A DNA stretch of 33,049 nucleotides, from the IMG/VR virus record IMGVR_UViG_3300030090_001544, positions 1 through 33,049 of that record. One strand, 5' to 3'. Source of the DNA: a virus. A program made the translations under genes and the position numbers. Shown here piece after piece: positions 1 through 33,049 of the stretch (its first letter is position 1; each line of letters begins with the position of its first letter). The notes under the pieces were generated by a model. That model was not told the origin of the DNA. It worked only from the letters and a program-made list of their open reading frames with translations, and made no database searches.

Positions 1-81
1 CCTTCATCGACCAGATCGGTAGTGTGACTGCGCAACTGCGTAGCAGCCGCCATGCCGATACACCACAGATCGACACGCCAC
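1..81. repeat. terminal overlap repeat, left copy
   Basis: These 81 bases recur at 32969-33049 with a single difference (C at 71, T at 33039), a silent third-position change in an Ile codon. The repeat lies inside the capsid gene. It therefore looks like the overlap of a circular or terminally redundant assembly, not a natural terminal repeat, which would break the capsid gene in a linear genome. The mismatch suggests strain variation among the assembled molecules. Confidence 0.93.
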
Positions 82-19126: not shown

Positions 19127-19451
19127 CGTCCTCTCCTTTGGCTTGTGGCGCAGCGTGCTTTGCGCTGATGACGTTGCCGATAGGCTTCATGGCCCTTTGT
19201 GATATGCCGTCAGCGATACTGTCCTCGCCCTCGTATTCGGTTACTCTTGAGATACGAATAGAGATAGTATTGTCCTCGTTGACGAACATCGACACTTGGT
19301 GACGCTGGCCTTCTCTGAACATGAGGTCAGCAGGAGCTTTCGACTCAAACGAATAAGGTTGCCAGTTGCCGTTGCTATACTGTGCCTTTGCTTTTGCATC
19401 AGTGTTTGCAAAGAGCTTGATGTATGTGATGGTTTCATAGCGTCTAGCCAT
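19104..19451 (-). CDS. single-stranded DNA-binding-like protein with acidic DIPF tail
   Basis: A 115-residue protein. Residues 1-85 are rich in beta strands and aromatic residues (YIKLFANTDAKAKAQYSNGN, then QVSMFVNEDNTISIRISRV), compatible with an OB fold. The end (EDDDPDIPF, residues 107-115) is the acidic-Phe tip that in bacterial SSB recruits partner proteins. It is encoded next to an ERF-like annealing protein, a standard pairing. It likely protects single strands during recombination and replication. The OB fold is inferred; the tail is seen. Confidence 0.72.
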   Translation of the reverse strand: MARRYETITYIKLFANTDAKAKAQYSNGNWQPYSFESKAPADLMFREGQRHQVSMFVNEDNTISIRISRVTEYEGEDSIADGISQRAMKPIGNVISAKHAAPQAKGEDDDPDIPF

Positions 19452-20037
19452 TCTTTTTGAACTCCTTGTTCTGCTGTAAGCATTTGTTTTTGATTTCTTG
19501 ATAAATGTCTGGGTGTTCGCGTCCGGCGACCTGCATCCATTTCTTGGTAAAGTCGCTGTTCATCCAATCATCAAGGCCCTTCTTATCAAATTCCGGTAGC
19601 CAAGTTTCAGCTTGCCGCTGCAACTCAATGATGTTTTCGTTGATTGTTTCTTGCTTTCTGTGTGCTGCGTCCACTTCATCAACAGACGCATACTCACCAC
19701 CAGCAAGACCAAGAGATGCCAAGGCACGACCAATCGCAGAGGTTTCACAGTTTTCCAAGGCACTTGTCTTGTTGACGTTGCCTTGTCCTCTGATCTCTTC
19801 AGCCATGCCGCTGCCGACAATCGTGCCATCCATGTTATGGATTGTAGCTTTGACAACGACACGCACTGTGTCGTCCACCAGAATGTGTGTGTCTACACCG
19901 AAGGCAGTGCCATGCACCTGACGAAACGCCTCCATTCGATGCACCACCTGGGTGTATTTCTTGCCACCCTTTTGTCTCACGCCATGAGTGTCGTTCAACT
20001 CAGAGACAAGTTGCATTGTTTGTTTTAGGTCAGTCAT
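19444..20037 (-). CDS. ERF-like single-strand annealing recombinase
   Basis: A 197-residue protein from the ATG at 20037 (GGGAGAGAA lies just before it; the longer frame from 20082 has no such site). The N-terminal part is beta-rich (THILVDDTVRVVVKATIHNM) and is followed by KTSALENCETSAIGRALASL, a motif I associate with ERF-type annealing proteins of phages. The C-terminus is helical and basic (DWMNSDFTKKWMQV, then NKCLQQNKEFKKNG). It should anneal complementary strands after exonuclease resection, together with the RecB-like nuclease at 22260-23153. The ATG overlaps the DpdA-like stop (ATGA). Confidence 0.7.
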   Translation of the reverse strand: MTDLKQTMQLVSELNDTHGVRQKGGKKYTQVVHRMEAFRQVHGTAFGVDTHILVDDTVRVVVKATIHNMDGTIVGSGMAEEIRGQGNVNKTSALENCETSAIGRALASLGLAGGEYASVDEVDAAHRKQETINENIIELQRQAETWLPEFDKKGLDDWMNSDFTKKWMQVAGREHPDIYQEIKNKCLQQNKEFKKNG

Positions 20038-20723
20038 ATTTCTCTCCCAAACATTGACTGTTGTACAGGGTGTGGCTCCCAAAACAATGGTGTTTGGACG
20101 CCATCAATTTTTCTCGCCATGTGCTCTGGGCATCGACCGTAATCTTTGAAGTTGCGTGATACATTTACACTGTCAGCACTCGCAAAAGGCCAACGTTCAC
20201 CGGCTAGAGACAAGCCTCTAAGCATATGTATCCAAGGCATCCTTTGATGTTTCTGTGCTAGTTTGTTGAACGCTGCGTCTGCCCTGGCGCACCAAGCATC
20301 TGATCCGACATTCCAATATTCACCGCTGGAGCCAAAACATATCTTGGAGTAGTGATCTGTGAGATACATCAGATAGTCAAAAGACATATCCATGTGCCAG
20401 ACAGGCGCTCCAAACTCCGGTCCAAACGGCCACTCGGAAAGCAAGTTTCTCTGCTGTTCCTCGTCTCCACCGATGACATCTGGAATCACAGCCCAATGTG
20501 GGTGTGCTATTTTATTCTCAAGCCAATGATAAAGTTTGGTGCGGTCAAGATGTTTGCCTTGCGTGTAGGTTGTGAATGCGCCGTTGTCCCACATGACTGA
20601 TTGCCCAATTTCCATGCAAGTTTTTGCCTGATATGCGTTGGCAAAACTCACACACAAATGTTTCCCAGCCATGCGGTACAACATCTCTTTAGGCGTCATC
20701 GGTGTGCCGTGGAAGTGAATCAC
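20034..20723 (-). CDS. dpdA: DpdA-like 7-deazaguanine DNA transglycosylase
   Basis: DpdA exchanges guanine in DNA for a 7-deazaguanine base and is related to tRNA-guanine transglycosylase (TGT). I choose the GTG at 20723 (229 residues): GGAG lies upstream and GTGA overlaps the previous stop. The longer frame to 20855 lies within the upstream gene. Visible motifs are H-F-H-G-T at residues 3-7, WDNGAF at 45-50 (Asp46, the TGT DSGGF equivalent), PDVIGG at 81-86, FGSSGEYW around 130-137, HMLRGLSLAGER at 166-177 and ADSVNVSRN at 183-191 (Asp184, the expected nucleophile, followed by the substrate-binding Ser/Asn/Arg). It is coupled to a small unknown gene and a YhhQ-type transporter. Identity is from motif and context. 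Confidence 0.85.
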   Translation of the reverse strand: MIHFHGTPMTPKEMLYRMAGKHLCVSFANAYQAKTCMEIGQSVMWDNGAFTTYTQGKHLDRTKLYHWLENKIAHPHWAVIPDVIGGDEEQQRNLLSEWPFGPEFGAPVWHMDMSFDYLMYLTDHYSKICFGSSGEYWNVGSDAWCARADAAFNKLAQKHQRMPWIHMLRGLSLAGERWPFASADSVNVSRNFKDYGRCPEHMARKIDGVQTPLFWEPHPVQQSMFGREI

Positions 20724-20974
20724 GGTGATTCCCACTCCGAAACGATTTCGACAGTGTTGTGGGTTGCGGTCAGACGCCCACTCTCTAACAAAAATTGTTG
20801 AGAGAGAAACGTCGCCAAGTCCTCTTGGAAAATTGGCTCGTGATCTCCAACACAAGCAGCTTGAATATCTTCAACCAAGACCTTGCGAGGTGACCATAAC
20901 TCCAAAACGTAGCGGATGGTGGAATCATCGACAGGACACAAACGTGCAAAACAAACCCTATACGAATGACGCAT
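20720..20974 (-). CDS. unknown 84-residue protein between dpdA and yhhQ
   Basis: The ATG at 20974 (a GTG at 20977 is an alternative) has AGAGG seven bases upstream, and the frame overlaps yhhQ by 17 bases and dpdA by four (GTGA). The protein starts MRHSYRVCFARLCPVDDS and continues with YVLELWSPRKVLVEDIQAAC. Three Cys and two His (in DHEP and ATHN) are present, but there is no clear zinc motif. The end is hydrophilic (EIVSEWESP). No family recognised. The full coupling to the modification genes makes it a candidate partner of the transglycosylase or transporter, an inference from position only. Confidence 0.62.
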   Translation of the reverse strand: MRHSYRVCFARLCPVDDSTIRYVLELWSPRKVLVEDIQAACVGDHEPIFQEDLATFLSQQFLLESGRLTATHNTVEIVSEWESP

Positions 20975-21449
20975 CACTTTTCCTCTTGAGCATGTAGTAA
21001 ACTGCTAACGCGCCAAGCATTTTGCTCACCACCATCACAACAAACCCATACCAACTAAAGAAGCCAAGCATGAGCATGAACACCGCACTATCTGCCGGTG
21101 TGCTAACTGCTGATGAGATAAGAATACGCTCTTTGAGTGGCTTGCCGCTGTAAGTGTAGACAGCCCAATCCACCAGCTCACTGATGGCAAATGCTACCGC
21201 ACTGGCAACAGCCACAAATGGGTTTGCAAGCAGGTAACTTAAAACCAAGCCTACGATCATGGGAATGAATACTTTGTGGCCCAAGTCGCGCTGTGCAAAG
21301 TCTCGCAAAACAAACACAAACCCAACAAGCAAACTCATGGGTGCAAACATTTCGCCGCCTGGCAAAGAAATCATAGGAATGTAAGTAAACCCTATATTTG
21401 CGATAACGATTGCGCCTACATATCCAGCGCTTGCGCGATATTTATTCAT
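20958..21449 (-). CDS. yhhQ: YhhQ/VUT-family queuosine precursor transporter
   Basis: A 163-residue integral membrane protein with five to six membrane helices (for example AGYVGAIVIANIGFTYIP, PMSLLVGFVFVLRDFAQRDL, MIVGLVLSYLLANPF, VFMLMLGFFSWYGFVVMVVS). The cytoplasmic motifs FVLRDFAQRDLG and SELVDWAVYTYSGKPLKERI and the later TPADSAVFM are the signature I know for the VUT (DUF165) family, which imports queuosine precursors such as preQ0 and preQ1. It is shorter than E. coli YhhQ (221). AGGAG lies upstream of the ATG, which overlaps the preceding stop. Next to dpdA it should supply the base for phage DNA modification. Confidence 0.87.
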   Translation of the reverse strand: MNKYRASAGYVGAIVIANIGFTYIPMISLPGGEMFAPMSLLVGFVFVLRDFAQRDLGHKVFIPMIVGLVLSYLLANPFVAVASAVAFAISELVDWAVYTYSGKPLKERILISSAVSTPADSAVFMLMLGFFSWYGFVVMVVSKMLGALAVYYMLKRKSDASFV

Positions 21450-24223: not shown

Positions 24224-24625
24224 TTACTTAGTAAAAGACAGTTTGCTGCCTTTCCAGTGATAGTGATGCTTGGCGTGGCAGTTGTGGCACAACACAAAAC
24301 ATTTCTTCAGTTCTTCCACAATCGTTGCCCACTTGTAATGTGTGGCACTGCCAATGTTGAACAGCTTGTTTGTCTTGTGGTGGTGAAAGCACAGACTAGC
24401 AGGGTGTTTCTCGCCACATTTGCAGCAACCATGTGCTGCCTTGGCAAGGTCTAAATAGGCTTGTCGTCTAATTCTAATTTGCTTGTTGTCCACAGTGATG
24501 CGTTTCTTGCAGCGTGCAAACACCTCTGGTGATCGCCAATCCTCGCCGTTCTTGGACTTCTTGTTGTAGCCCCAGAATATCTTGCCATCCTCTCGCACGT
24601 CGCCGTGCTGTAGTTTTCTAAGCAT
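24224..24625 (-). CDS. HNH endonuclease
   Basis: A 133-residue protein. A zinc site of two Cys pairs (Cys67/68 and Cys70, then Cys113-x2-Cys116) surrounds the HNH motif: FHHHKTNKLFNIG (residues 80-92) with the histidine pair, then FVLCHNCHAKHH (110-121) with the Asn-Cys-His. The N-terminal part (KIFWGYNKKSKNGEDW) resembles the short phage HNH proteins with an extra basic domain. It could be a homing endonuclease-type or packaging-associated nuclease. It is the last gene of the second minus operon. The leader AAAGGATCAAACA precedes the ATG. Confidence 0.8.
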   Translation of the reverse strand: MLRKLQHGDVREDGKIFWGYNKKSKNGEDWRSPEVFARCKKRITVDNKQIRIRRQAYLDLAKAAHGCCKCGEKHPASLCFHHHKTNKLFNIGSATHYKWATIVEELKKCFVLCHNCHAKHHYHWKGSKLSFTK

Positions 24626-32844: not shown

Positions 32845-33049
32845 ATGTCCCAACAAATCACCACGGCGTTTGTACAACAGTATTCTGCCAATGTGCAGAT
32901 GCTATCCCAACAGATGGGTTCTCGTCTGCGGGATGCGGTGCGCCTTGAGACTGTTGTAGGTAAGAACGCCTTCATCGACCAGATCGGTAGTGTGACTGCG
33001 CAACTGCGTAGCAGCCGCCATGCCGATACACCACAGATTGACACGCCAC
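32845..33049 (+). CDS. major capsid protein, N-terminal part (gene continues at base 82)
   Basis: The ATG at 32845 is preceded by GAGAGGAGGA. The first residues (MSQQITTAFVQQYSANVQML, then GSRLRDAVRLETVVGKNAFI) are the family N-terminus. The sequence continues seamlessly into the left end of the window, because 32969-33049 equals 1-81. The full protein is 292 residues. See the entry at 1-755 for the rest. Confidence 0.88.
   Translation, partial: MSQQITTAFVQQYSANVQMLSQQMGSRLRDAVRLETVVGKNAFIDQIGSVTAQLRSSRHADTPQIDTP
32969..33049. repeat. terminal overlap repeat, right copy
   Basis: This copy matches bases 1-81 with one silent mismatch at 33039. Both copies lie in the capsid gene and in the same frame. 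It shows that the molecule closes on itself and that about 32,968 bases are unique. Confidence 0.93.

Follow-up and report, generated by a model that had tools for sequence, protein, structure and literature searches.

How does a phage obtain a 7-deazaguanine base for its DNA if it encodes the inserting enzyme and none of the synthesis genes, and what is done to the base once it is in place? The question is raised by IMGVR_UViG_3300030090_001544, a 33,049-nt stretch of viral DNA (here called the window, always at its full length), in which three genes on the minus strand encode, in order of transcription, a membrane protein of the VUT/YhhQ family, a small protein and a short DpdA-type guanine transglycosylase, each gene overlapping the next. 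The three open reading frames lie where a first-pass annotation, made from the letters alone, had placed them. Our analysis points to a self-contained, salvage-type cassette for DNA hypermodification that combines import, base exchange and tailoring of the nitrile, a reading to which we assign a probability of roughly two in three.

Predicted precursor import and its exchange for synthesis genes

Two observations show the window to be a complete, circularly permuted phage genome of ~32,968 bp: the 81 bp at either end match (98.8% identity, a single mismatch), and two relatives (33.4 and 33.7 kb) run unbroken over the junction of these ends. The absence of a gene from the window is therefore meaningful. 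Profiles for QueC, FolE, PTPS/QueD and radical-SAM proteins gave no match in the window, in agreement with the first-pass statement that FolE, QueD, QueE and QueC are lacking. Among 20 whole records (the window and 19 relatives), QueC, QueD and QueE occur only in that of locus L027 (loci are numbered with the prefix L), and FolE occurs in none.

Assignment of the first gene to the VUT family, also made at first pass, was borne out. The protein is borderline on Pfam PF02592 (Vut_1) alone (E 1.3e-5; 26 bits, just below the 27.2-bit cut-off), a threshold that its homologues in L001, L002 and L021 pass. Further matches are to PHROG 4899 (E 3e-32) and to the TIGR00697 profile for a 'queuosine precursor transporter' (E 4e-4). 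With the CAjan phage protein annotated as a preQ0 transporter, the VUT protein shares 41% identity over 155 aa. Its length of 163 aa is usual among phage members.

The strongest evidence for the function of the cassette comes from the comparison of L082 with L027. L082 carries the VUT gene and the small gene, and its transglycosylase is 94% identical in protein sequence to that of L027, where QueD-QueE-QueC lie directly upstream of the transglycosylase and the locus has no VUT gene. The two match at 85% over the 6.3 kb up to the cassette and again, at 89% of the DNA, through the transglycosylase; between these aligned flanks stand 722 bp in L082 (VUT and small gene) and 1,672 bp in L027 (QueD, QueE and QueC). 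L031 compared with L027 shows the same replacement. The simplest reading is that preQ0 import and preQ0 synthesis are alternative feeds for the same enzyme. Since the importer is swapped for QueD-QueE-QueC, preQ0 import is strongly supported, and with it the proposal, already made at first pass, that the phage relies on precursor salvage through an importer of its own. Family membership and the swap together predict preQ0 as the substrate of the window's VUT protein; this stays a prediction because YhhQ-family members differ in what they carry, the E. coli QPTR/YhhQ transporting preQ0 and preQ1 and other members queuine (PMC11130926).

Further arrangements of the synthesis genes were observed. 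In L027 (6325-8004, record G011) the full QueD-QueE-QueC operon is joined by overlaps to the short DpdA gene, with no FolE. In L021 (6930-8687) QueC fills the slot between VUT and the transglycosylase, suggesting either import of 7-carboxy-7-deazaguanine (CDG) or a half-finished replacement. QueE-QueD-DpdA with no QueC nearby was seen in L167 (2740-4333) and L197 (4064-5684); such a set would end at CDG.

The pairing of importer and transglycosylase is widespread. Of the 80 closest IMG/VR loci, 75 have a VUT gene adjoining the transglycosylase, which argues against chance; of 132 representatives, 74 do. Across 202 loci the pair is found in both orders, with and without the small gene; a short QueD-like gene is present in some loci and QueE or QueC in a few. 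On a tree of the 132 transglycosylases, 19 changes are required for the VUT gene (74 rows) and 15 for the small gene (24 rows), which means that both come and go. Isolated phages with VUT next to the enzyme include Pam5, RHph_X2_30, RHph_N3_2 and Flyfo siphovirus Tbat1_6; of the three genes, RHph_N3_2 has VUT and the transglycosylase only, whereas phage Mae-JY30 has the transglycosylase and the small gene. Among bacterial hosts, QueF was missing from 6 of 10 with a VUT prophage and from 0 of 10 without VUT (Fisher p 0.011), and QueC from 3 of 10 and 0 of 10, respectively (p 0.21); a link between host QueF loss and prophage VUT is suggestive only, because the two groups are phylogenetically unlike and metagenome-assembled genomes are among them.

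A QueF-L-like T-fold between importer and transglycosylase

The product of the middle gene, entered as unknown in the first-pass annotation, matches only the unnamed PHROG 37496 when searched as a single sequence, with nothing found in Pfam, NCBIfam or PDB. A profile of 24 family members gave one significant PDB match, the archaeosine synthase QueF-L (5jyx, E 1.3e-4), and member-by-member scans gave scattered weak matches, GTP cyclohydrolase PHROG 5949 appearing in four members (E 0.007). In the AlphaFold model (predicted local distance difference test, pLDDT, 93.6) the chain follows the order beta-beta-alpha-alpha-beta-beta, as in a T-fold unit. Its best matches are QueF-L 5jyx/5k0p (Foldseek E 1e-4; VIA-align Z 11.6, root-mean-square deviation 2.0 over 85/85 residues), which rank above GTP cyclohydrolase I, PTPS and QueF, with a lead in Z over the first GTP cyclohydrolase chains (10.8) of less than 1. 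Likewise, hhalign gave a probability of 92.8% against a QueF-L fragment (QueF against QueF-L reaches 93.7%), compared with 7% for QueF and 1% for FolE. Profile, model and hhalign thus point to a QueF-L-like T-fold.

The conservation pattern is consistent with an enzyme of this type. With residues counted from the GTG start, all 37 relatives have C14, P15, Y23, E36, E52 and H73, and 36 of the 37 have D17; Q51 is also conserved. The CP motif C14-P15 aligns with C21-P22 of QueF-L, in which C21 forms a thioimide with preQ0 that attack by ammonium converts to archaeosine base (G+), the enzyme acting on preQ0 in tRNA and not on free preQ0 (PMC5485725). The NADPH motif of QueF is present in none of the 37 relatives, compared with 9/10 QueF sequences. 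In L313, which is more distantly related, CC replaces CP. Assignment as GTP cyclohydrolase I (FolE) was considered and rejected: the family has no CEHH and no second conserved cysteine, the hhalign probability is 1%, and PF01227 misses the window. Because the cysteine and the conserved glutamates are kept and the aligned catalytic aspartate is not, we describe the protein as QueF-L-like and not as a proven QueF-L; it is predicted to act on the preQ0 nitrile.

Searches seeded by the small protein alone returned only loci with a neighbouring transglycosylase. In some prophages the small gene stands next to the transglycosylase without VUT; these belong to Massilia, Janthinobacterium and Cupriavidus, and a strong QueC is present in the hosts. 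Loci of this composition are L235, L238, L239, L260 and L313, one of them a provirus. Other small genes occupy similar places. A PTPS/QueD-like T-fold of ~100 aa lies directly upstream of the short DpdA gene in 25 loci, including L144, L149, L153-L158, L160-L162, L164, L179-L184, L197 and DMCA (L006 6705-7001); in most cases neither QueC nor QueE was seen in the vicinity. Instead of being a true QueD, this protein may be a further T-fold that tailors DNA. A second, unrelated small family (consensus RYxMVLDFSGADPHAVVAA) occurs beside VUT and DpdA in L001 (16678-16938), L002 (5512-5757), L006 (7723-7977), L208 and L212, and includes members in Devosia and Agrobacterium prophages.

Base exchange, the proposed pathway and its alternatives

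The third gene falls into PHROG 887 ('queuine tRNA-ribosyltransferase', E 9e-39), a large family found in phages and prophages, and its product is 35% identical over 199 aa to the DpdA of Pantoea phage MED16 (BLASTP E 4e-31). The DpdA of CAjan is recovered by hhalign (probability 92.8, E 4e-7). VIA-align found the TIM-barrel fold of tRNA-guanine transglycosylases (TGTs) in the AlphaFold model (pLDDT 88.5), with Z of 12.5-13.7 over ~200 residues against archaeal and bacterial TGTs; Foldseek of the same model gave no significant match, whereas VIA-align on the same candidates did. The top single match, Cap10 of the Cap10-CdnD complex (Z 14.2), is tied with the archaeal enzyme arcTGT (1iq8, 13.7). 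Structure prediction and the MED16 similarity thereby bear out the first-pass view of the product as TGT/DpdA-like; that a 229-residue enzyme and a short importer would be distinctive was not confirmed, such lengths being normal in the large family. Invariant in 45 transglycosylase sequences are H5, D46-N47-G48, D82, H110, H166, R169 and D184. D46 (in DNGAF) and D184 (in ASADS) align with DSGAF and CDSS of CAjan DpdA, and through that alignment are candidates for the catalytic aspartates of TGTs. Judged by its fold, its family and the modified DNA of phages with related enzymes, the short DpdA would exchange guanine for preQ0 in phage DNA.

In the pathway that we propose, the VUT protein would import preQ0 made by other bacteria and the transglycosylase would swap guanine in phage DNA for it. 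The invariant cysteine of the small T-fold would then form a thioimide with the preQ0 nitrile, most likely already within DNA, and a tailored base would be released, most likely the amidine dG+ (archaeosine), as QueF-L produces in tRNA. We rank the possible products as dG+ first, the amide dADG next and dPreQ1 least likely, and we infer both this conversion by the small T-fold and the protection of the window phage's DNA, which would be left uncut by many restriction enzymes. In other phages 7-deazaguanine bases are reported to protect DNA from restriction (PMC6884629, PMC5567051), and CAjan DNA contains dPreQ0 (PMC6884629); MED16 DNA contains dADG, with little apparent protection (PMC8306585). 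The first-pass prediction of a plain preQ0- or preQ1-type base has to be revised: because the middle gene encodes a QueF-L-like T-fold, a product of the nitrile (G+ or ADG) is more likely, and the NADPH motif that preQ1 would require is absent from the whole family. The parts would behave as three exchangeable modules, with QueD-QueE-QueC able to replace import together with the small gene, and the small gene serving as an optional finishing step.

Several observations weigh against this pathway. Sequence cannot tell which of preQ0, preQ1 and queuine the VUT protein carries. In the small protein, I21 stands opposite the catalytic aspartate of QueF-L (D28 by alignment), the conserved D17 lying elsewhere, although D17 might stand in for it; the position of QueF-L His62 is mostly glutamine (Q51) in the family, and H73 has no obvious QueF-L counterpart and recalls GTP cyclohydrolase I. 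The small gene is missing from most VUT cassettes. A profile HMM search of the PDB with the transglycosylase found no TGT and hhalign against 12 bacterial Tgt proteins gave no significant alignment, so its link to canonical TGTs rests on the fold and on CAjan DpdA and not on direct sequence similarity.

The alternatives differ chiefly in what the small T-fold does. It might act on the preQ0 nitrile and release a different product, either the amide dADG by attack of water or the amine preQ1 by reduction. We consider this rather unlikely, although dADG does occur in phages that have DpdA and no known DpdC, MED16 with its related DpdA among them, and the active-site residues D17, Q51 and H73 are partly unlike those of QueF-L. 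Reduction to preQ1 is opposed by the missing NADPH motif in 37/37 sequences. As for the amide, MED16 has no homologue of the small gene within 22 kb around dpdA, and its dADG therefore does not come from this protein family; a homologue immediately upstream of dpdA in MED16 would have implied dADG, but the gene at that place, when examined, is not one. It is improbable, in our judgement, that the small protein instead assists or regulates the transglycosylase, the DNA carrying plain dPreQ0. The gene is optional, many VUT-transglycosylase pairs doing without it, it always adjoins the transglycosylase, and in the 25 loci described above a PTPS/QueD-like T-fold fills the place beside that enzyme, all of which would suit a partner; however, the invariant CP, glutamates and histidine look catalytic, and the nearest fold and profile are those of an enzyme of the same pathway.

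More doubtful still is a role on the supply side, in which the small enzyme would make the substrate of the transglycosylase from an imported precursor that is not preQ0. The replacement in L027 removed the small gene together with VUT, so that its role could indeed be in precursor supply, QueC occupies the same slot in L021, and substrates vary within the YhhQ family. Against it stand the Massilia, Janthinobacterium and Cupriavidus prophages, which keep the small gene and transglycosylase without an importer in hosts with a strong QueC, and the behaviour of QueF-L, which is productive on preQ0 in nucleic acid and not on free preQ0. That the transglycosylase targets something other than phage DNA, either tRNA or, like Cap10 in CBASS, a protein, seems very improbable. 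In its favour, the top structural match is Cap10, tied though it is with arcTGT. Against it, the search of window proteins, which was not a genome-wide defence search, recognised no CBASS genes, the gene lies in an early DNA-metabolism operon beside an annealase-like gene, and DNA is what is modified in phages with related enzymes. Import, exchange in DNA and nitrile tailoring together remain our preferred reading.

A wider proposal, on which we are nearly undecided and lean slightly to the sceptical side, is that the 84-residue protein founds a minimal family of DNA-tailoring T-folds acting on DNA-inserted preQ0 and that, with the importer and the short DpdA, it makes up the smallest complete pathway known to us (three genes, ~1.4 kb) for a charged or elaborated guanine, with parts swapped like cassettes.

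Genome context and comparison with known systems

The features of the window are listed below. The start of the small gene overlaps the stop of the VUT gene, the GTG of the transglycosylase overlaps the TGA of the small gene, and the ATG (20037) of the following gene overlaps the transglycosylase stop; the product of that gene reads like a single-strand annealing (ERF-like) protein.

Features of the window and of the cassette region
Feature	Position	Strand	Remarks
Left terminal repeat	1..81	+	98.8% identical to 32969-33049
ERF/annealase-like gene	19444..20037	-	phrog_11717, no annotated function
Short DpdA-type guanine transglycosylase, 229 aa	20034..20723	-	GTG start 20723
QueF-L-like single-domain T-fold protein	20720..20977	-	85 aa (GTG 20977) or 84 aa (ATG 20974)
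VUT/YhhQ-family membrane protein, predicted preQ0 importer, 163 aa	20958..21449	-	start ATG 21449
Right terminal repeat	32969..33049	+	junction spanned by relatives

Structural genes resembling those of podoviruses (major head protein, head-tail adaptor, tail proteins and terminase) occupy the left and right parts of the window, and an HNH endonuclease gene (PHROG 2255, E 1.5e-18) lies in the early region at 24224-24625. Inverted repeats across the cassette region were chance-like. The record is not flagged for end repeats, its circularity being masked by the one mismatch in the 81-bp ends.

Phage-borne dpdA and yhhQ genes had been noted at first pass as already reported, and both are indeed described, as is a phage QueF-L. 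In the 2019 survey of Hutinet et al., phages with DpdA and without preQ0 synthesis genes form a third group, for which host preQ0 or uptake was suggested; some phages carry YhhQ, uncorrelated with survey group (PMC6884629). The window resembles this group in having a DpdA-type enzyme without FolE, QueD, QueE or QueC; unlike the group as described, importer and enzyme share one operon across a large family, a QueF-L-like gene is present and a swap is documented. Escherichia phage CAjan (Seuratvirus), with dPreQ0, likewise has a DpdA and a preQ0 transporter, the latter 41% identical to the window's VUT protein, but also has FolE, QueD, QueE and QueC, and its DpdA of 306 aa is only distantly related. 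Pantoea phage MED16 (PMC8306585) has the same short DpdA family, whereas VUT and the small T-fold were not found in 22 kb around its dpdA. In Sphingomonas phage vB_StuS_MMDA13 (PMC7472734) the DpdA cluster likewise includes a separate QueF-L homologue, with preQ0 synthesis of its own (FolE, QueD, QueC, QueE), unlike the window. Bacterial dpd islands also modify DNA with 7-deazaguanines and carry YhhQ in ~9% of cases (PMC11888242); they contain dpdA-C and a restriction operon, none of which was seen among the window proteins searched.

The closest arrangements are those of Pseudanabaena phage Pam5 and Rhizobium phage RHph_X2_30, in which VUT, a small gene and the transglycosylase stand in a row and whose records give these genes no function. 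One small gene of RHph_X2_30 belongs to the window's family (42% identity), while the middle gene of Pam5 encodes an unrelated small protein (family B). At the level of the enzyme, the nearest known protein is QueF-L of Pyrobaculum calidifontis (5jyx/5k0p; PMC5485725), which is also a single-domain T-fold with a nucleophilic cysteine in a CP motif and no NADPH motif; at 84-85 aa against 109 aa, the phage protein is shorter, lacks the aligned catalytic aspartate and has its own conserved D17, Q51 and H73.

As far as the literature compared shows, a literature that excludes a 2023 Nucleic Acids Research (NAR) paper on four further phage 7-deazaguanines and a 2024 review in Microbiology and Molecular Biology Reviews (MMBR), the identity of the small protein, the tight three-gene cassette for salvage plus tailoring and the replacement of importer by QueD-QueE-QueC at one locus are new. 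The triad spans ~1.4 kb and therefore could be tried as a transplantable module for DNA labelling or restriction protection, and a candidate finishing enzyme can now be named among the small unknown phage proteins (PHROG 37496). The question left by the 2019 survey receives a concrete answer, in that DpdA phages without preQ0 genes could modify their DNA by bringing their own importer, and importer and synthesis genes are interchangeable at one locus.

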